Shown here piece after piece: positions 25,343-46,239 of a stretch of 46,239 nt of DNA (positions within the stretch are counted from its first letter, which is position 1; each line of letters opens with the position of its first letter). A program made the position numbers and the translations under genes. The notes beneath the pieces were generated by a model, which made no database searches, was not told the origin of the DNA, and saw only the letters and a program-made list of their open reading frames with translations. Location of the stretch: NCBI GenBank assembly GCA_031406795.1, contig JANOHV010000075.1, forward strand, positions 1-46,239, read 5' to 3'. Origin of the DNA: DATDCY01 sp031406795 [NCBI: Candidatus Rokuibacteriota bacterium]. GTDB lineage: Bacteria > JAUVQV01.

Positions 25343-25441
25343 GGGAGCGGATGGGTCACTGGTGGGCCCCCCGGACTTCAAATCCGGTCGGCGGGCGCTA
25401 ATCACGTCCGCGGTAGGTTCGATTCCTACACGTTCCCGCCA
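25343..25441 (+). tRNA. selC: tRNA-Sec (UCA anticodon)
   Basis: 99 nt including the encoded CCA. The anticodon is TCA (25378-25380) in loop CTTCAAA, closed by the stem CCGGA/TCCGG. The acceptor arm pairs GGGAGCG with CGTTCCC, the discriminator is G and CCA follows. The variable arm is long (about 25 nt, GCGGGC/GTCCGC stem), and the T arm is GTAGG-TTCGATT-CCTAC. The extra-long acceptor/variable arms and UCA anticodon identify selenocysteine tRNA. It indicates that this organism decodes UGA as Sec, although selA, selB and selD are outside the window. Confidence 0.95.
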
Positions 25442-25684: not shown

Positions 25685-26758
25685 CTAGCGGTCGCCCTCG
25701 GCCATCGCCTTGCCGAACGCGGCCCAGAACGGATCGACCCGGGGGTGCTCCAGCGTACGGATGCGGCCGCCCTCGGCGAGCGTGATCCCCTCGGCCTCCG
25801 GGAGCGTCTCGCCGATGACGGCGGCGGCAATGCCCTTCGCAGCGAGGCGAGCCAGAATTTCCGCCGTCCGGTGCTTCTTGCACGTCAGCACGAGCGTCCC
25901 CTCGCTGATCGACGTGAACGGGTCGATCGCGAAGAGGCGGCAGACCTTCTCGACCTCCTCCGGCACCATGATCCGCTCGCGCTCGATGCGCATGCCGACG
26001 CGCGAGGCCCGGGCGACCTCGTACAGGCCGCCCCAGAGGCCGCATTCGGTCGCATCGTGCATCGCGGTCACGCCGTCCTCGCGCACGCCCACGGATGCTG
26101 CGATCGTGGCTTCCTCGACGACGCTCATTTGTCCGAACATGGCGTCCGCCCGCCGGGCGAAATCGGCCCCGTAGGCCGCCGCGACGCGTTTCGGGAAGGT
26201 CGCGGCGAAGAGCGCCGTCGCCTCGATGGCCGGGCCCTTGGTGATCACGACGTCCTCGCCCGCCCCGGCCATCGCCGGCGTCACATAGCGATCGCGCGGG
26301 CCGGTGGCCATCACGGTTGCCCCGCCGATCATCGGGTACTCGCAGCCCTGGTAGCGCGCCGTGTGCCCGGCGATGACGGCGATGCCGAGCTTGTCGCACT
26401 CGGCGTGCATCGCGCGCCAGAGGGTGACGAACTGCTCCTTGGTGATGCCGAGCGGCAGGTTCAGGTCGATCGTCATCCACCGCGGCGCCAGCCCCGAGAC
26501 GGCCGCGTCCGAGGCGAGGATGTGCACCGCGAACCACGCCGAGCGCTCCCAGCCGTACTGCGGCACGACGAAGACCGGGTCGCACGTGACGGCCATGACG
26601 TTGCCGCCACCGATGTCCACCACGCCGATGTCCACCCCGTGCTGCGGCGGCACGAGCACCGCGGGGTCGCGGCGCCCAAGCCGCGGGTAAATGACTTCCT
26701 CGAAGATCTCGGGCGAGATCTTGCCGATCTCGGGCAGCTCGTGCACGTGCTCGTTCAT
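25685..26758 (-). CDS. AIR-synthase-like (PurM/HypE superfamily) protein
   Basis: 357 aa from ATG 26758 with GGAGGG upstream. It has the two-domain PurM-type ATP-binding fold: the N-terminal part includes DIGGGNVMAVTCDPVF and LASDAAVSGLAPRWMTIDLN, the second part GAGEDVVITKGPAIEATALF and MHDATECGLWGGLYEV. This places it with HypE-like AIR synthase-related proteins. The Gly-rich loop and catalytic Cys/Sec-Lys pair of SelD are absent at the N-terminus. Convergent with the selC-tautomerase unit (10-bp gap). The substrate is unknown. Confidence 0.8.
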   Translation of the reverse strand: MNEHVHELPEIGKISPEIFEEVIYPRLGRRDPAVLVPPQHGVDIGVVDIGGGNVMAVTCDPVFVVPQYGWERSAWFAVHILASDAAVSGLAPRWMTIDLNLPLGITKEQFVTLWRAMHAECDKLGIAVIAGHTARYQGCEYPMIGGATVMATGPRDRYVTPAMAGAGEDVVITKGPAIEATALFAATFPKRVAAAYGADFARRADAMFGQMSVVEEATIAASVGVREDGVTAMHDATECGLWGGLYEVARASRVGMRIERERIMVPEEVEKVCRLFAIDPFTSISEGTLVLTCKKHRTAEILARLAAKGIAAAVIGETLPEAEGITLAEGGRIRTLEHPRVDPFWAAFGKAMAEGDR

Positions 26759-26855
26759 CGCTTTCCCTCCGCAGGCATTACCCTGACAGGTTGCGGGGTC
26801 GGCCCAGGCGGACCCTCTCAGCCGTCCGCAGACAGCTCCCCCAAGCATGGTCGGT

Positions 26856-39363: not shown

Positions 39364-40701
39364 TCACGCCTGTATCCTCCGTGTGATCGTGTCGATCGTG
39401 TTCTGGACTTCGACGCTGGTCTTCTTCTTCTCGGCGATGATGTTCAGCGAGTGGATCACCGTCGAGTGGTCGCGGCCCCCGAACATCTTGCCGATCACCG
39501 GCAGCGAGGAGGAGGTCAACTGGCGGCACAGGTGCATCGCGAGCTGGCGCGGGTAGACCAGGTTCTGCGTGCGGCGCTTGGAGATCAGGTCGGAGAGCTT
39601 GATCCCGAAGTAGGTGGCGACCTCGCGCTTGATCTCGTCGATCGTGATCGTCTTCTCGCTGGCCGCGAGCATGTCCTTGAGGGTCTCGCGGGCGAACTCG
39701 ATCGTGATCTCGCGGTTGCCGAGCGAAGAGTACGCCCCGAGACGGACCAGGGCGCCCTCCAACTCGCGGATGTGCGACTTGATGGAACTGGCGACGAAGA
39801 GCGCCACTTCGTCGGGAATGGCGATCCCGTTCTGTTCGGCCTTCTTGCGCAGGATCGCGATCTTGGTCTCCAGGTCGGGCATCTGGATGTCGGCGATCAG
39901 GCCCCACTCGAAGCGCGATCGCAGCCGCTCCTCGAGATCCGGGATGTCGCGCGGCACCTTGTCCGAAGTGAGCACGATCTGCTTGTGCGACTCGTGGATC
40001 GAGTTGAAGGTGTGGAAGAACTCCTCCTGGGTCTTTTCCTTGCCCGCGATGAACTGGATATCGTCGATGAGCAGCAGTTCCATGTTCCGGTAGCGGTTGC
40101 GAAACGCCGACATGCGGTCGTAGCGGATGGATTGGATCAACTCGTTGATGAACGTCTCGGCGGTCAGGTACATGATGCGGGCGCCCGGGTTGCGCTCCAG
40201 GAATCGGTGCCCGATCGCATGCAGCAGATGGGTCTTGCCGAGACCGACGCCGCCGTAGAGAAAGAGCGGGTTGTAGGTCTTGGAGTGCCCGTCGGCAACG
40301 GCGAGGCTCGCCGCGTGCGCCATCTGGTTGCTGGAGCCCACGACGAACGTGTCGAAGGAATACTTGTTGTTGAGGACCGTGCCGCCGTGATGGATCGTCC
40401 GCGTGAAGGGCAGGTCATCCTGGCGCGGGCGCTCTTCCTCTGCCTTGCGCTCCGCCGGCTGGAAGACGACGGTGCACTCGCGCCCCGCGATCGCGGAGGC
40501 CGTCTCGCGGATCAGCACCTGGAAGTTCTCATTGAGCCAGTCCTTGAAGAATTTGCTGGGCACCGAAACGACGAGCGTCCCCTCGGAGAAGCGCTCCTGG
40601 AGCGTCGGGGAGAACCACGTCGAGAAGCTCTGTTCGTTGACGTGCGAGCGCACGCGCTCCTTGACCTGATCCCAGAGATCGAGAGGCTCCTGCGTGCTCA
40701 T
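39364..40701 (-). CDS. dnaA: Chromosomal replication initiator DnaA
   Basis: 445 aa, ATG 40701. Domain I (LDLWDQVKERVRSHVNEQSF), short linker, AAA+ domain with LFLYGGVGLGKTHLLHAIGH and LLLIDDIQFIAGKEKTQEEF, and the C-terminal box-reading domain with the signature FGGRDHSTVIHSLNII near residue 407. Full length. The gene reads left toward dnaN and gyrB. Confidence 0.98.
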   Translation of the reverse strand: MSTQEPLDLWDQVKERVRSHVNEQSFSTWFSPTLQERFSEGTLVVSVPSKFFKDWLNENFQVLIRETASAIAGRECTVVFQPAERKAEEERPRQDDLPFTRTIHHGGTVLNNKYSFDTFVVGSSNQMAHAASLAVADGHSKTYNPLFLYGGVGLGKTHLLHAIGHRFLERNPGARIMYLTAETFINELIQSIRYDRMSAFRNRYRNMELLLIDDIQFIAGKEKTQEEFFHTFNSIHESHKQIVLTSDKVPRDIPDLEERLRSRFEWGLIADIQMPDLETKIAILRKKAEQNGIAIPDEVALFVASSIKSHIRELEGALVRLGAYSSLGNREITIEFARETLKDMLAASEKTITIDEIKREVATYFGIKLSDLISKRRTQNLVYPRQLAMHLCRQLTSSSLPVIGKMFGGRDHSTVIHSLNIIAEKKKTSVEVQNTIDTITRRIQA

Positions 40702-41040
40702 GCCACCGTGGGAATATTCTTGAAAAGAATCAAGCTAACCTCTCGCCGGACAAGCAAAATCTGCCCCTGAAACGCCACGAATTACACACAGTCTTTTCAA
40801 CATCTGTTGAGAATCGCAAAAAGCCGTGTGTCTTCAGCAAGTTAGAGCAATTCGTCACGGCTGGTTCGGCAGCGTTTCCGCCCCAGATCCGCTCATGGCG
40901 CCGATGATAGCGCAGCAGGCCGCGAAAGACAAGGGCCTTCTGTGATTTCCCCGCGCTCCCGAGGGACGGCTTGACGCGGCGGCGGCGGCTGTGGTTAGAT
41001 GCCGCGACCGGCGCCAGACATCCAGACGCAGAGGGGCGAA
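40702..41040. other. 339-bp divergent gap between dnaA and cheC
   Basis: No gene seen. On the dnaA side a hairpin ATTCTT-TTC-AAGAAT (minus strand, about 40714-40728) lies just before the dnaA start, in an AT-rich leader with no clear consensus promoter. On the cheC side a perfect-start -35 TTGACG at 40971-40976 is followed after 18 bp by TTAGAT; this is only a weak promoter candidate. Confidence 0.4.
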
Positions 41041-41664
41041 ATGTACGAGCGGATCGACGAGTCGCGGCTGGACATCCTTCGCGAAATCTGCTCCATCGGT
41101 GCCGGCCACGCCGCGACCGCCCTCTCCCAGCTGACCGGCCGCCGCATCGATCTGGAAGTACCAAGAGTGCTCTTCACGAAGGTCCAGGAGGTTCCGCGAA
41201 TCGCCGGCGGCGCCGAGACCGTCGTCGACGGGCTGTACTTCCGCATCCTCGGGGACGCCAGCGGGGTGATCCTGATGATCTTCCCCGAGGAGAGCGGGCG
41301 CGAGATCGTGCGTCTGGTGCTCGGGAGCCAGCAGGCGCAACCCGAGGATGCGCTGAGCGTGTCGGCGATGCGCGAGATCGGCAACATCCTCACGTCGGCC
41401 TTCCTCTCGGCGATCGGCCAGCTGGCCGGGCTCTCGCTGATCCCCTCGGTGCCCGGGTACGCGCGCGACATGGCGGGGTCGATCCTCGATCTCGTGCTCA
41501 TCGAGCTCTCGCGCCTCGAGGACACGGCGCTGGTGATCGAGACCGTGTTCCGGGAGGCCGGCGAGGGGATCCGCGGCCACTTCTTCCTGCTGCCCGACCC
41601 CCACACCCTCGAGGCCACGCTGAAGGCCGCCGAGCGGGCCGGCTCGCCGCGAGGGCCGGCTTGA
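41041..41664 (+). CDS. cheC: Chemotaxis protein CheC (CheY-P phosphatase)
   Basis: 207 aa from ATG 41041 with GAGGGG upstream. CheC dephosphorylates CheY-P and binds CheD. The two pseudo-symmetric active-site helices are visible: the second, SAMREIGNILTSAF, keeps the Glu-x-x-Asn pair, while the first, DILREICSIGAGHAATALS, has Ser where Asn is expected (EICS for EIGN). A longer upstream frame from 40999 has no similarity. It overlaps cheD by 4 bp. No other chemotaxis genes are nearby. Confidence 0.92.
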   Translation: MYERIDESRLDILREICSIGAGHAATALSQLTGRRIDLEVPRVLFTKVQEVPRIAGGAETVVDGLYFRILGDASGVILMIFPEESGREIVRLVLGSQQAQPEDALSVSAMREIGNILTSAFLSAIGQLAGLSLIPSVPGYARDMAGSILDLVLIELSRLEDTALVIETVFREAGEGIRGHFFLLPDPHTLEATLKAAERAGSPRGPA

Positions 41665-42180: not shown

Positions 42181-43449
42181 TTAGCCATCCGCCGGGCTTC
42201 TCACCATCAACCCCGGCCGGTTGAGCACGTGCGTGTAGATCATCGTCGTCGAGACATCCGAGTGCCCGAGCAGTTCCTGCACAGTGCGGATGTCCGCGCC
42301 GGATTCGAGCAGATGGGTCGCGAACGAGTGGCGCAGCGTGTGGCAACTCGCGCGTTTGGCGATCCCGGCGCGAGTCACGGCGGCCTTCACGGCCTTTTGC
42401 AGGACGCTCTCGTCCACGTGGTGCCGGCGAGTTCTTCCGGTTCCCGGCTCAATGCAGAGGCGTGCTGCTGGAAAGACATACTGCCAGGGCCATTCTCTCG
42501 GGGCTCCGGGGTACTTGCGTTCCAGGGCGGGCGGGAAGGTCGTGCCGAAGAACCCGGCCTCGCTATCGAGCCTCCAGAGGGCGCGGATCCGCTCCAGATG
42601 CTGGACAACCGCCTCCCGGTAGCGCTCGGGCAGTACCGACAGGCGGTCCTTGCGGCCCTTGCCCTCGCGCACCGTAATCTGCCGGCGCTCCAGGTCGAGA
42701 TCCTTGACCCTCAGAGTAATCAGCTCCTGCAGCCGCAGACCGGATCCGTACAGCAGGCTCGCCATCAGGGCGGTGTCCCCATTCATGGCCGCAAGGAGAC
42801 GCGAGATTTCGGCCCGGGTCAGCACAACGGGGATGAAGCGCGGTCGCTTGGATTTCTGGAAATCCCCCAGATCGCCGAGTTCCCTGCCCAGGGCCTGTTT
42901 GAACCAGAACACCAGAGCGTTGAGAGCCTGAGCCTGCGTCGATGCCGATACCATCCCGGCGACGACAAGCTGCTCCAGAAAAGCCCTGACGAGTGCGGCG
43001 TCGGATCCGACGGTCGGTCGGGCTTTGCGGAAAGCCACGAAGCGGCGAACCCACTGAGCGTACGACTCCTCGGTTCTGCGGGAGTAGCCCCGCGCACGAC
43101 AAGCGGCCCGCAATGGGTCAAGATCGCCATCAACCGTGCGCCCAGGGGGAGCATCCTCAACCACCTCCCAACGCTTGCCATACACTGCGGTAAGCAGTAA
43201 CCTCAACGAATAATACGCACTGCGGATTTTCCAGTCCTCGGCGCCGGGCGTGGATCGGAGGGTTGTCGTGAACGACTCCACATCTTCTCTGACTGCCGCA
43301 GGTAGCGGTTTTCCCTCGAGAAAACCAGCAAACCGCTCGACCCAACGCACGCACCACGGCCGCAGTGTCGCCGGCACCCCGGTGATTTCAAGTGCACGAA
43401 GATACGGCGTGTACCACGAAGCATCGGCGCAGAGCTTCCCGTCATCCAT
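42181..43449 (-). CDS. intI: Integron integrase with extra N-terminal domain
   Basis: 422 aa from ATG 43449, chosen for GGGAGGA 8 bp upstream. Tyrosine recombinase of the IntI type: Arg239 (GSGLRLQE), His370-x-x-Arg373 (CHTLRHSF), His396 (LLGH) and Tyr405 (TMIYTHVLN), plus the IntI-specific patch (PALERKYPGAPREWPWQYVF, 307-326). Family members are about 320-340 aa; this one has about 107 additional N-terminal residues whose pattern (RWVERFAGF, VREDVESF, SLRLLLTAVYGKRW) resembles the following core-binding domain at 108-195 (QWVRRFVAF, ALVRAFLE). It faces away from the cassette array, the usual integron geometry. Confidence 0.94.
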   Translation of the reverse strand: MDDGKLCADASWYTPYLRALEITGVPATLRPWCVRWVERFAGFLEGKPLPAAVREDVESFTTTLRSTPGAEDWKIRSAYYSLRLLLTAVYGKRWEVVEDAPPGRTVDGDLDPLRAACRARGYSRRTEESYAQWVRRFVAFRKARPTVGSDAALVRAFLEQLVVAGMVSASTQAQALNALVFWFKQALGRELGDLGDFQKSKRPRFIPVVLTRAEISRLLAAMNGDTALMASLLYGSGLRLQELITLRVKDLDLERRQITVREGKGRKDRLSVLPERYREAVVQHLERIRALWRLDSEAGFFGTTFPPALERKYPGAPREWPWQYVFPAARLCIEPGTGRTRRHHVDESVLQKAVKAAVTRAGIAKRASCHTLRHSFATHLLESGADIRTVQELLGHSDVSTTMIYTHVLNRPGLMVRSPADG

Positions 43450-43574
43450 GACCCATCCTCCCGCTTGGGCGACTGGGGTAGCAAAAGCCATGCTAGGCCG
43501 CCACCGCCCCGACTGGATAACACGGCGGCGGGTACGACTGGATAAAGCTGCCGCCACCTAATCAACTGTTAGCC
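43450..43574 (+). other. attI: attI recombination region
   Basis: Gap between the intI start and the first cassette. It ends in a GTTAGCC core (43568-43574), where cassettes join after the G. Two 11-bp direct repeats CGACTGGATAA (43510-43520 and 43535-43545), 25 bp apart, lie 23-58 bp from the core and may be accessory integrase sites, like DR1/DR2 of attI1. The intI promoter must also lie here; no clear consensus was seen. Confidence 0.75.
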
Positions 43575-43579
43575 AAGAA

Positions 43580-43897
43580 ATGGAAAAGAAACTGTTCTCC
43601 AGTTCAGTGTTCGAGTCACTGACTGACGTTGATCGTCGATCGCGATTGGATCAAATGGAACAGGAACTCAAAGCAATCATCGGTCAGTGCTCGTCACCAC
43701 AGCAATTTATCCATCGAACCAAACAATCAGTCGAAATCCTCAGGTGTATGGGACACGATCTGTGGAACGTTGACTCAGACAAAAAGACATTTGAAATCTG
43801 GGAAAGTGAATACATCCGTCCAAAACTGATGGGAAGGCTCGTCGTCGCCTTCAAGTACCCCAATCAAGTGCACGTCGAATGGTCGAGCAAATTGTAA
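43580..43897 (+). CDS. Cassette 1: hypothetical protein
   Basis: 105 aa from ATG 43580, only 6 bp after the attI core. Not recognised. It is a soluble, mixed-charge protein with an N-terminal helix-rich part (SLTDVDRRSRLDQMEQELKA), a His/Cys pair (QFIHRT, RCMGHDLW) and a beta-like C-terminus (LMGRLVVAFKYPNQVHVEWS). A+T-richer than the chromosome. As the first cassette it should be the best expressed from an integron promoter. It ends 3 bp before its attC site. Confidence 0.7.
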   Translation: MEKKLFSSSVFESLTDVDRRSRLDQMEQELKAIIGQCSSPQQFIHRTKQSVEILRCMGHDLWNVDSDKKTFEIWESEYIRPKLMGRLVVAFKYPNQVHVEWSSKL

Positions 43898-43900
43898 AAT

Positions 43901-44027
43901 GGCTAACCAGGCGTTGTAGCCGACGGATCACGCTTGCATTTCTGCCCTTTGAGGCTAAGGTCAATGCCAGCGGCAACGTTCTAATACGGGCAGGCAAGCG
44001 CGCCCGCGGCTAAACGCTACGTTAGCT
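43901..44027 (+). other. attC: attC site of cassette 1
   Basis: 127-bp imperfect palindrome. The 5' core is GGCTAAC (43901-43907), the 3' core GTTAGCT (44021-44027). Inner arms GCGTTGTAGCCG and CGGCTAAACGC pair with one unpaired base, the hallmark of attC bottom-strand folding; further in, CGCTTGC pairs with GCAAGCG and GCCC with GGGC. Confidence 0.93.
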
Positions 44028-44040
44028 TTGAAAGGATAAG

Positions 44041-44613
44041 ATGACCAAGGAGCGGAAGGCAATTCCACGGGTGATCCGGGATGGGGTGCTCAAGGAATAT
44101 CATCACTCCTGTGCGATATGCGGTGGCAAGAATCCGCATTTGCACCACATCGATGAGAATCCGAACAATAACGAACCCATGAATCTTATCCCTCTGTGCC
44201 CGAACCACCATCTTCGAGACCAACATGATCCGACGTCACCACTTGAAGCCGGAATTCTTGTCCTATTCCGGAAATTCAAGGATCCAACAGTCTTGTCACC
44301 CCAATTCTACCCACTCTACAAACGTCTCAAAGTGCTTGACACGCATATTGCCAATATCAGGGACCCAGACGTTCTCAAACAAGACCTGAAAGATCTCATA
44401 GAATTTGTGTCTACATTGGCTATGGGACAGTACTATTCGAAGAAGATTAAGGAAATCATGAAGATCTCTTCTTGGGCCACCACAACGGAAGACATATTGA
44501 ATTTCCGCTCACCACAATCTCCCCAGTACCTGTTTCGAAATGAGAGGGAACAAATCGAGGAAATGGTTGTTGAACTTCTCCGTTACCAGGGATGGGAATA
44601 CAAAGCAAGCTAA
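44041..44613 (+). CDS. Cassette 2: HNH endonuclease-like protein
   Basis: 190 aa from ATG 44041, AAAGGA upstream. Residues 20-60 form an HNH nuclease module: zinc Cys pair C24/C27 (CAICGG), HHIDENPNNN at 35-44 and LIPLCPNHH at 49-57. The C-terminal 120 residues are helical and unrecognised (YYSKKIKEIMKIS and so on). It could be a restriction-like or defence nuclease, or a toxin; no partner gene is in the cassette. The TAA stop lies inside the attC 5' core. The gene is clearly A+T-richer than the surrounding chromosome. Confidence 0.8.
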   Translation: MTKERKAIPRVIRDGVLKEYHHSCAICGGKNPHLHHIDENPNNNEPMNLIPLCPNHHLRDQHDPTSPLEAGILVLFRKFKDPTVLSPQFYPLYKRLKVLDTHIANIRDPDVLKQDLKDLIEFVSTLAMGQYYSKKIKEIMKISSWATTTEDILNFRSPQSPQYLFRNEREQIEEMVVELLRYQGWEYKAS

Positions 44614-44704
44614 CCAGGCGTTGTAGCCGACGATCCGGTCTGTCACGGTCTGTGCAGAGCACAGCCCGCGCCATCCCGTCCCGCGGTTAAACGCAACGTT
44701 AGGC
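44608..44704 (+). other. attC: attC site of cassette 2
   Basis: 97 bp, 5' core AGCTAAC (44608-44614), 3' core GTTAGGC (44698-44704). The first 22 bp after the first base of the core match the other two attC sites, and GCGTTGTAGCCG again pairs with CGGTTAAACGC. The middle differs, with its own hairpin (CTGTGC/GCACAG). Confidence 0.92.
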
Positions 44705-44715
44705 GGAAAAATACA

Positions 44716-45189
44716 ATGACAACAGACCGGCCCCAGTTCATCGCAATCGCGTTTGCTGGCATCGTGACCATAGCAGTCGTCTTCCGGGCACTACATGGCA
44801 TACTGAAGGCCGCCATTGCATCAACTATCCTCAATGCATGGCCTAAATACATGCCCTCTGACTTTCAACCGAGTGCCATGTTTACGGTGCTCATCAATGT
44901 GTTTGTCGATGCTATCACTGCTCTTCCAGTTGCGGTCCTTGTCGCGATCTTCGCTCGAATACTTCTCAGAAGACAGATACTGCCAGTGGCTAGCCTGTCA
45001 GCTCTTCTTATGCTTGCCCTCGATAAGAGAGTTCATCATTTCGTTCGAAATGAGTACGACGAGAACTATCTCGCCTTCGTGCTGAGTGCGGCGATCGGTC
45101 CAATAGTTCTACTCATAGCATCTTTTGTGTCAGACAAGGCCAACACTTCGAAGCAAGGAGCAGAGAAAATGCCTAACCAGGCGTTGTAG
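44716..45189 (+). CDS. Cassette 3: four-helix membrane protein
   Basis: 157 aa from ATG 44716. Four predicted membrane helices at about residues 8-30, 54-82, 90-104 and 121-141 (for example FAGIVTIAVVF and FVLSAAIGPIVLLIASFV), with a short positive loop LLRRQ. No family recognised. The reading frame runs into the attC site, so its last residues (PNQAL) and TAG stop are supplied by attC sequence. Confidence 0.72.
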   Translation: MTTDRPQFIAIAFAGIVTIAVVFRALHGILKAAIASTILNAWPKYMPSDFQPSAMFTVLINVFVDAITALPVAVLVAIFARILLRRQILPVASLSALLMLALDKRVHHFVRNEYDENYLAFVLSAAIGPIVLLIASFVSDKANTSKQGAEKMPNQAL

Positions 45190-45292
45190 CCGACAGTCAC
45201 GCTTGCATTTCTGCCCTTTGCGTTTAGAGTCGGCTCCAAGGGCAACTATGCAAATACGGGCAGGCAAGCGCGCCTGCGGCTAAACGCTACGT
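45171..45292 (+). other. attC: attC site of cassette 3, 3' core destroyed
   Basis: 5' core GCCTAAC (45171-45177). Long stretches are identical to attC1, including the start after the core, the CGCTTGCATTTCTGCCCTTTG block and the CGGCTAAACGCTACGT end. In attC1 the GT is followed by TAGC to complete the 3' core; here GTGCGAGG of a group II intron follows, so the site is split inside GT|TAGC. Confidence 0.9.
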
Positions 45293-46103
45293 GTGCGAGG
45301 TCTCGAAACCATCATCTTGCGATCTGAAAGGAGATCGCCACACCAAGTGCCCTTGTGGGTGTGTAGGCAGGAGGCGGGCTGGCGTGGTAACACGGCGGTC
45401 GAACATGCCTCGACACGGCACCGCGAAGGCTCGCTCTGCAATGGGGCGGGTCGTACCCAGTCGGGGGTGCTGGCCAAACGTGCAGGCCGCAGCATAAAGC
45501 GAACAGTGCAGCCTCGTGAATTTAGGCCGGACGGCGATAGCTGGGAGAGTCCGGTAGCGGGATAAACCAACGCGAGTTGGCTACGCGCCGACCCTCTACG
45601 TAGAAGGGGGCCAGTGCCTGTCGGGAAGCAAAGGGCAAACGCACCGATGGGGGACCCGGGGTAAGGCTGACAGCATGCACGGACAGATGATGGAGGTAGG
45701 ACCTGAAATCCCACCGTACCCCGTCGTTCTCCGACGGCGGTAAGCGGGCGCCAAGTCGGGTGCAACCGGCAAGATGACCGTTACGGGCGGAGGGATGTCG
45801 GAGGGGCCGGAGAAGTGAAGATGGGCAGGAGAGAAGAGTCTGCCTGGAGCGTGCGGCCCTGCTTCGACCAAGTCTGTTTTTCAGGGAGGGAGGCATGAGT
45901 GCCGTCAAGGCTAGGAACATGCGAAACACGGTCCGAGCCCTGCAAAACACACTCTTGTGCAGCGAAACAGTCGCTGGATAGGAGATTCGGAGCCCTCTAC
46001 GATAAAGTGTATCGGGAGGACGTACTGCGGACGGCCTGGAAACAGGTCAGGGCGAACGATGGGGCGCCCGGAGTCGATCGGCAGAGTTTCGAGTACATCG
46101 TAA
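45293..46103 (+). mobile_element. Group II intron (IIC-attC type), 5' fragment
   Basis: Begins GTGCGAGG, the group II 5' consensus, exactly at the attC 3' core. About 600 bp of structured, ORF-free DNA (domains I-IV) precede a degenerate reverse-transcriptase ORF at 45895. Similarity to group II reverse transcriptases ends near 46100, so domains V-VI and the 3' splice site are missing. It is in the same direction as the cassettes. The class C-attC assignment rests on the insertion site and N-terminal RT sequence. Confidence 0.85.
45895..46103 (+). pseudogene. Group II intron reverse transcriptase, frameshifted and truncated
   Basis: ATG 45895 opens [20 protein letters not shown], the start of a group IIC intron-encoded protein. 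After the TTG-TGC at about 45955 that frame stops (TAG at about 45979), while the next frame continues the protein as [20 protein letters not shown] and then [20 protein letters not shown]. Removing one T near 45955 restores one frame. Similarity stops after FEYI near 46100, leaving about 70 of over 400 residues, without the catalytic YADD. It is not functional as read. Confidence 0.85.
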
Positions 46104-46239
46104 GTCCTCGCCCTACCCCGACTGCACATTTTCCTCGTCGGCAGGCGTCTTCGTGATGGCCGCCGGGTCACGGTCGAGCGCCGGTCCGGCCGGGCGGTCT
46201 ACTGCAGGGTGTTCTTCTTCAACTCCGCGGGGAGGAAGG
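46104..46239. other. Unidentified sequence after intron break
   Basis: GC-rich DNA that is not intron. One plus-strand frame is open to the edge ([18 protein letters not shown], then VYCRVFFFNSAGRK) but has no start, and a minus-strand frame ends FLPAELKKNTLQ before a TAG at 46198-46200. Either could be the edge of a gene that lies mostly outside the window. Not identified. Confidence 0.3.

Follow-up and report, generated by a model that had tools for sequence, protein, structure and literature searches.

An integron integrase with tandem core-binding domains beside an attI with direct repeats 25 bp apart

Integron integrases, which enable bacteria to acquire and rearrange genes, are usually regarded as having one DNA clamp, and what the accessory repeats do at attI is unsettled. 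The window (the whole stretch of DNA that was analysed, 46,239 nucleotides) carries an integron integrase gene, intI, whose product bears an N-terminal extension ahead of its canonical core-binding (CB) domain. The questions raised by this locus are whether the extension truly belongs to the protein, what kind of domain it forms, and what a second clamp might do at the integron recombination sites. The open reading frame runs from an ATG at 43449 to a stop codon that ends at 42181, and its features are as follows.

42181-43449, minus strand: intI, integron integrase with tandem CB domains, 422 aa (open reading frame and profile)
43457-43462, minus strand: Shine-Dalgarno sequence GGGAGG, 7 nt upstream of the ATG (sequence)
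43183-43422, minus strand: CB1, the extra core-binding-like domain, residues 10-89 (profiles, repeat register and models)
43135-43182, minus strand: linker joining CB1 and CB2, residues 90-105, pLDDT partly low (model)
42892-43134, minus strand: CB2, the canonical core-binding domain, residues 106-186 (PF13495 and model helices)
42223-42825, minus strand: catalytic domain, residues 209-409 (PF00589, E = 1.7e-38)
42415-42564, minus strand: presumed IntI-specific insertion (patch III region), about residues 296-345 (approximate bounds)

By all tests made the product of 42181-43449 is an integron integrase, and its oddity lies in the tandem CB architecture and in the attI. The curated IntI profile TIGR02249 matches residues 110-421 at 403.5 bits (E = 6e-121), passing its cut-off of 265, PF13495 is found at residues 111-192 (E = 6.6e-25 with the whole protein as query), and residues 105-406 superpose on VchIntIA (2a3v) with a Z of 26.6. 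In a 24-protein alignment (A3) R239, K267, H370, R373, H396 and Y405, which we take to be the tyrosine recombinase catalytic residues, are invariant, and K264 is nearly so. The region around residues 296-345, which we take to be the IntI-specific insertion, lies within both the TIGR02249 match and the 2a3v alignment and is conserved in A3. The sequence-only reading, which had recognised the IntI residues and the IntI-specific patch in a protein of 422 aa, is thus borne out by profile, invariant columns and structural alignment. It had also allowed for a true start near residue 105, and this is refuted: GGGAGG precedes the ATG at 43449, nothing resembling a Shine-Dalgarno site is found upstream of the in-frame TTG of residue 113, and the extension is present in 57 of 107 parsed loci, so that a wrong gene start is ruled out as its source.

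Computation confirms that the CB domain is present twice, the extension being the additional copy. When residues 12-97 are laid without gaps on residues 109-194 (an offset of 97), 15 of 86 positions are identical and the BLOSUM62 sum is +15, the next best register reaching -33; none of 2000 shuffles attained this score at that register and, with the register left free, 0.3% of them equalled the best local score. The paired motifs from which a repeat had been proposed (RWVERF/QWVRRF, VREDVESF/ALVRAFLE and YGKRW/LGREL) all share this offset when read by eye. Profile comparison using hhalign aligned the extension of the family with the CB domain of standard IntI proteins (93.4%, E = 2.5e-7, 79 columns, score 41.3) and with the CB2 of the extended proteins themselves (96.2%, E = 2.1e-9), and none of the controls (40 column shuffles, a reversed profile and three catalytic segments) exceeded 16.7 against the score of 41.3. 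A chance repeat is ruled out by these controls together with the shuffles at offset 97. Taken alone, the extension of the window protein matches Phage_int_SAM_4 (PF13495) at E = 0.0037 and 18.1 bits, below the cut-off of 27; across the family, hits to the same profile at E<=1 were obtained for 16 of 17 extensions, the best at 3.2e-7. No NCBIfam profile matched within the extension of the window protein. Another kind of domain was also rejected, since among the 10 Pfam families matched by any of the 17 extensions only two, both integrase SAM-like families, were matched by more than one, and the sole PHROGs family with hits from more than one extension was the integrase family phrog_1 (4 of 17). 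Against solved structures the extension profile placed chains of lambda Int and VchIntIA on top, with weak E-values of 0.009-0.14. The window copy is divergent (20-35% identity to 16 relatives), and CB1 is close to neutral in charge, with 12 K/R and 10 D/E as against 14 and 10 in CB2 of the window. In an alignment read by eye, the position that aligns with the conserved W133 of CB2 holds W36 in the window protein and a residue other than tryptophan in most relatives.

Structure prediction points the same way. A model of the full-length protein (31 sequences, mean pLDDT 85) places helices at residues 10-22, 30-43, 54-66 and 72-89 of the extension, which mirror the four of CB2 at 106-119, 124-142, 150-163 and 169-186. 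Residues 1-105 were also modelled alone (three sequences, mean pLDDT 83), and the best solved match of this model was the CB domain of VchIntIA (2a3v, Z 11.3, 2.9 A, 90 residues); two further integrase-family proteins followed at Z 6.7 and 4.6, beyond the Xer CB domains discussed below, and the remaining listed chains lay at or below 3.1. As Z values below about 13 can be common among helical bundles, the fold assignment draws on the ranking and the drop in Z and not on Z by itself. In Foldseek, the top three hits to residues 1-105 were chains of 2a3v, with weak E-values near 1. The models thus predict a four-helix CB (SAM-like) clamp fold for residues 10-89 and, as far as models go, the helices, pLDDT and structure ranking rule out a disordered or unrelated fold, either of which would have spoken against the original proposal. 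The extra domain itself, proposed at residues 12-97, is present, whilst its bounds were slightly off: residues 10-89 fit the model helices best.

The extension is not peculiar to the window: profile searches, a check proposed at the outset, find many other IntI proteins with it, a family trait that one sequence by itself could not reveal. The first relatives seen to carry it were a viral contig (L001), plasmid pTs485 of Candidatus Thiodictyon syntrophicum, and a Thiodictyon metagenome-assembled genome (MAG). Among 72,556 plasmid records searched by tblastn, pTs485 was the sole match for the window extension and for its own extension, and the L001 extension had no match there. The record of the Thiodictyon MAG is classed in Chromatiaceae; in the family of this MAG 113 of 194 genomes searched had an IntI match at E<=1e-60 and, among the matches listed, at least 68 of these 113 had the extended form. 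In a draw of genomes at phylum level, 73 of 398 were matched at E<=1e-100, four with extended rows (the Thiodictyon MAG among them), and at class level the extension profile matched 39 of 274 genomes at E<=1e-5; five of the weakest among the latter (E near 1e-6, frames of 325-361 aa) probably represent CB domains of the ordinary kind, and if so they too would speak for the relationship of CB1 with the CB domain. A pattern scan of named genomes reached close relatives only (two loci in one Thiodictyon MAG), and a search of viral contigs with a three-row alignment of the extension confirmed nothing. Six viral loci (L051-L056) at first resembled relatives of the extension and are all counted as chance matches; of these L051-L054 were scanned and proved to be three phage portal proteins and one protein without a Pfam match. 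Two contigs of the Thiodictyon MAG (G001; L058 and L059) carry extended integrase genes, with one standard gene and fragments in addition. Three other loci (L210, L212 and L216) keep the extra CB domain, and no catalytic part of intI was found within them, such that they appear to hold truncated or decayed integrases.

Across the parsed loci, the extension was found at E = 2e-20 or better in 57 of 107 and had no match in 50; these 107 loci were picked by rank, 24 of the 57 extended ones built the profile, and a few represent one gene twice. In a tree of the part that all the proteins share, the 45 extended rows fall on one side of a single branch (SH-aLRT 94); the exact place of the window protein and of L001 is unsure because both are long branches. 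The extension is therefore a trait of one sizeable branch of IntI, with a single origin. It is also under purifying selection in the relatives: the median dN/dS is 0.18 for the extension, 0.13 for CB2, 0.09 for the catalytic domain and 0.29 for the linker (from 153 pairs among the extended relatives, with identities of 60-97% and 129-150 pairs usable per region), the ratios being rough because many dS values exceed 1.

What lies beside the integrase gene is an integron, with an attI core site, two attC sites whose bottom strands fold, and a third attC that is apparently interrupted.

43510-43529, plus strand: attI direct repeat, copy 1 (25-bp offset)
43535-43554, plus strand: attI direct repeat, copy 2, 80% identical to copy 1 and 25 bp away (repeat search)
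43557-43563, plus strand: candidate attI L box CCTAATC (inferred from where it lies and from its resemblance to L boxes in other extended loci)
43568-43574, plus strand: attI R core site GTTAGCC (core alignment; one base off GTTRRRY)
43569-44021, plus strand: gene cassette 1, ORF 43580-43897, no Pfam match at 0.01 (sequence)
43902-44027, plus strand: attC 1 (bottom strand of 43902-44026 folds with z -4.8, top strand -4.2)
44022-44698, plus strand: gene cassette 2, ORF 44041-44613, no Pfam match at 0.01 (sequence)
44609-44704, plus strand: attC 2 (folding: bottom strand z -3.3, top strand -1.8)
45166-45292, plus strand: attC 3, its R' end apparently interrupted by a group II intron (repeat families D1 and D2)

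By analogy, crossover at attI would take place after G43568. The score of the 20-bp repeat pair is reached by 0.5% of 2000 shuffles at any offset and by at most 0.05% at offset 25; the repeat unit has a sequence of its own and holds no plain copy of the window L box. The protein of cassette 2 (44041-44613) shows a CxxC...HH...H pattern that resembles an HNH nuclease. A probable group II intron (45292-46239) seems to begin in the R' end of attC 3; its Rfam match (RF02003, 45325-45497, E = 2e-5, 32.9 bits) falls below the cut-off of 49, and an ORF at 45899-46156 resembles the beginning of a reverse transcriptase of the group II type, ends early and has no Pfam match at 0.01. The integron has dnaA and a cheC-like gene (39364-41664) as neighbours, and elsewhere the window encodes a selenocysteine tRNA and a TPP riboswitch (25343-25437 and 26747-26852).

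Repeats with this spacing recur beside extended integrase genes. In 44 non-redundant extended loci a single spike was seen at offset 25, with a mean score of 7.9 against about 4 elsewhere and 34% of loci scoring >=9, whilst in 34 standard loci the mean at this offset was 4.2 and none scored >=9; the best offset was 25 in 17 of 44 extended loci as against one of 34 standard loci (p = 1e-4). New loci gave scores >=9 at offset 25 in three of 14 extended and none of 17 standard cases (p = 0.006); the 17 standard loci here wrongly include L187, whose intI is of the extended form and holds an internal stop, and L192 has a class 1-like 19-bp repeat. When pooled, with L187 and L192 omitted and the class 1 control L167 kept apart, strong direct repeats 25-27 bp apart were found in 23 of 59 extended and two of 50 standard loci (p = 8e-6); they were absent from 36 of the 59, and in 13 extended loci of the pool the best strong repeat had another offset. 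An attI below 150 bp was dropped from the set of 44 and 34 loci and from the inverted-repeat set described below, and one below 110 bp from the new and pooled sets, as were near-duplicates; the surveyed loci were taken by rank and are thus no random sample. A further 11 extended loci (three with truncated genes), which have no matched control and stand outside the pool, include six that score >=9 with a best offset of 25-27. The sequence of the repeat varies among lineages and its spacing hardly varies. Core alignment, in which the core was placed in 29 of the 44 extended loci by a scoring matrix trained on the same loci, indicates one ancestry and, in several of the loci so aligned, the repeated unit copies the L box together with a GATTC flank, lying exactly 25 bp before L and often accompanied by an inverted partner. 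The same repeat method applied to a class 1 attI1 returned a pair at 19 bp, taken to be DR1 and DR2. The earlier proposal that a second clamp could alter attI recognition gains indirect support from the repeats beside extended intI genes, a support that concerns attI and not attC, with the proviso that the extension has one evolutionary origin, for which reason clade and domain are inseparable as the cause of the repeats.

How might a second clamp and these repeats belong together? The account that we favour, and hold at roughly even confidence, is that an IntI of working type gained CB1 ahead of its normal CB domain once, via duplication or via capture of a similar domain, and that CB1 most likely grips double-stranded DNA beside the canonical half-site at attI, such that protomers tile the site in head-to-tail order, with their modules spaced at 25-27 bp. 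CB1 would lengthen the hold of each protomer and thereby set the attI modules 6-8 bp wider apart than in attI1; docking at attI might be fixed or strengthened by this, or its topology filtered, whilst catalysis and recognition of folded attC would stay with CB2 and the catalytic domain. Computation shows the domain with its predicted fold, its single branch and selective constraint, and the association with attI repeats; contact between CB1 and DNA, the role of the repeats as its sites and a change in the reaction are what we infer on this account. Against tiling stand the extended loci that have no strong 25-27 bp repeat (36 of 59), the near-neutral charge of CB1, the dissimilarity of the window repeat to its L box, and the mostly non-tryptophan counterpart of W133. 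Somewhat more tentatively, and with a little less than even confidence, the branch may represent a separate mode of attI recognition, with two tandem clamps per protomer, a modular attI of 25-27 bp units and strict or ordered docking on double-stranded DNA, recognition of folded attC being unaltered.

The near neutrality of CB1 would also suit a module with the clamp fold that binds protein, joining protomers on attI or in the synapse with little contact to DNA, in which case 25-27 bp would reflect the packing of protomers. The CB domains of tyrosine recombinases make contacts between subunits too, and since the repeats extend the L box they could be read by CB2 and the catalytic domain. However, several core-aligned loci preserve the GATTC flank as well as the L box, a hint of additional contacts to bases, and we regard a protein-protein role as possible, if on the unlikely side. 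Less probable again is autoregulation, whereby dyads beside intI would let the integrase repress its own promoter, with CB1 and the repeats in the service of this control. Within the first 200 bp before intI, 57% of 47 extended loci and 16% of 38 standard ones have a best inverted repeat that is significant against 40 shuffles (p<=0.05), and Chromatiaceae are reported, in the available part of one source (PMC3108266), to have no LexA homolog, so that another control of intI is conceivable. Yet some of these inverted repeats fall in the first cassette and not in attI, and the direct repeats continue as far as the L box of attI and take it in, as would be expected of recombination sites. It is scarcely credible that a harmless relic or a misplaced gene start accounts for the extension: its divergence in the window protein could be read in this way, but the ribosome-binding site at 43449, a dN/dS of 0.18 in relatives, the confidently modelled CB fold and its retention in over half of the parsed loci (57 of 107) all argue the opposite.

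The interest of the locus lies in the fact that, across a whole branch that is frequent in the family of the Thiodictyon MAG, wider spacing of the repeats accompanies the additional clamp. With a second clamp and repeats 25 bp apart the integrase may grip its landing site by a new mode, and the tandem-CB branch bears on how attI docking works and on why cassettes enter at attI. Neither an IntI with two CB domains nor a spacing of 25-27 bp appeared in the titles and opening lines of abstracts listed by searches of an open-access library, and a description may exist elsewhere. One standard IntI, on viral contig L048, has a long upstream repeat with a 42-bp period.

Among known systems, the arm-binding tyrosine recombinases (lambda Int and the Tn916 type) carry a further N-terminal domain ahead of the CB domain, and their attachment sites hold additional repeats. 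The window integrase and its relatives share both attributes with them; the extra domain of lambda Int and Tn916-type recombinases has the arm-binding fold, whereas the fold predicted here most resembles that of CB domains, which rank first among the chains listed when the extension alone is compared with solved structures. XerA-type and other simple Xer recombinases possess one CB domain only and are not known to carry the IntI insertion, and CB1 as modelled from residues 1-105 alone resembles their CB domains (4a8e, Z 10.1; 5hxy, Z 9.8). The available text of one account groups integron integrases with the simple recombinases and mentions only the insertion in the catalytic domain (PMC8138268). 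In the portions available of three sources, attI1 is made up of L, R, DR1 and DR2, all of which are bound by IntI1 and needed for optimal attI1 x attC recombination (PMC8946536, PMC12901181, PMC3518468); such accessory repeats favour attI1 x attC in class 1 and are described, in part of one of these, as absent from Vibrio attIA (PMC8946536), and an excerpt of another report describes an Aeromonas attI as without DR1 and DR2 (PMC10609294). The window protein has CB2, the catalytic residues, the insertion region and the attI/attC context in common with standard IntI (IntI1, VchIntIA; TIGR02249); standard IntI has one CB domain where the window protein has two, and the attI repeats of the extended branch are often 25-27 bp apart, in contrast to 19 bp in attI1 and to attIA, which has none according to the available part of PMC8946536.
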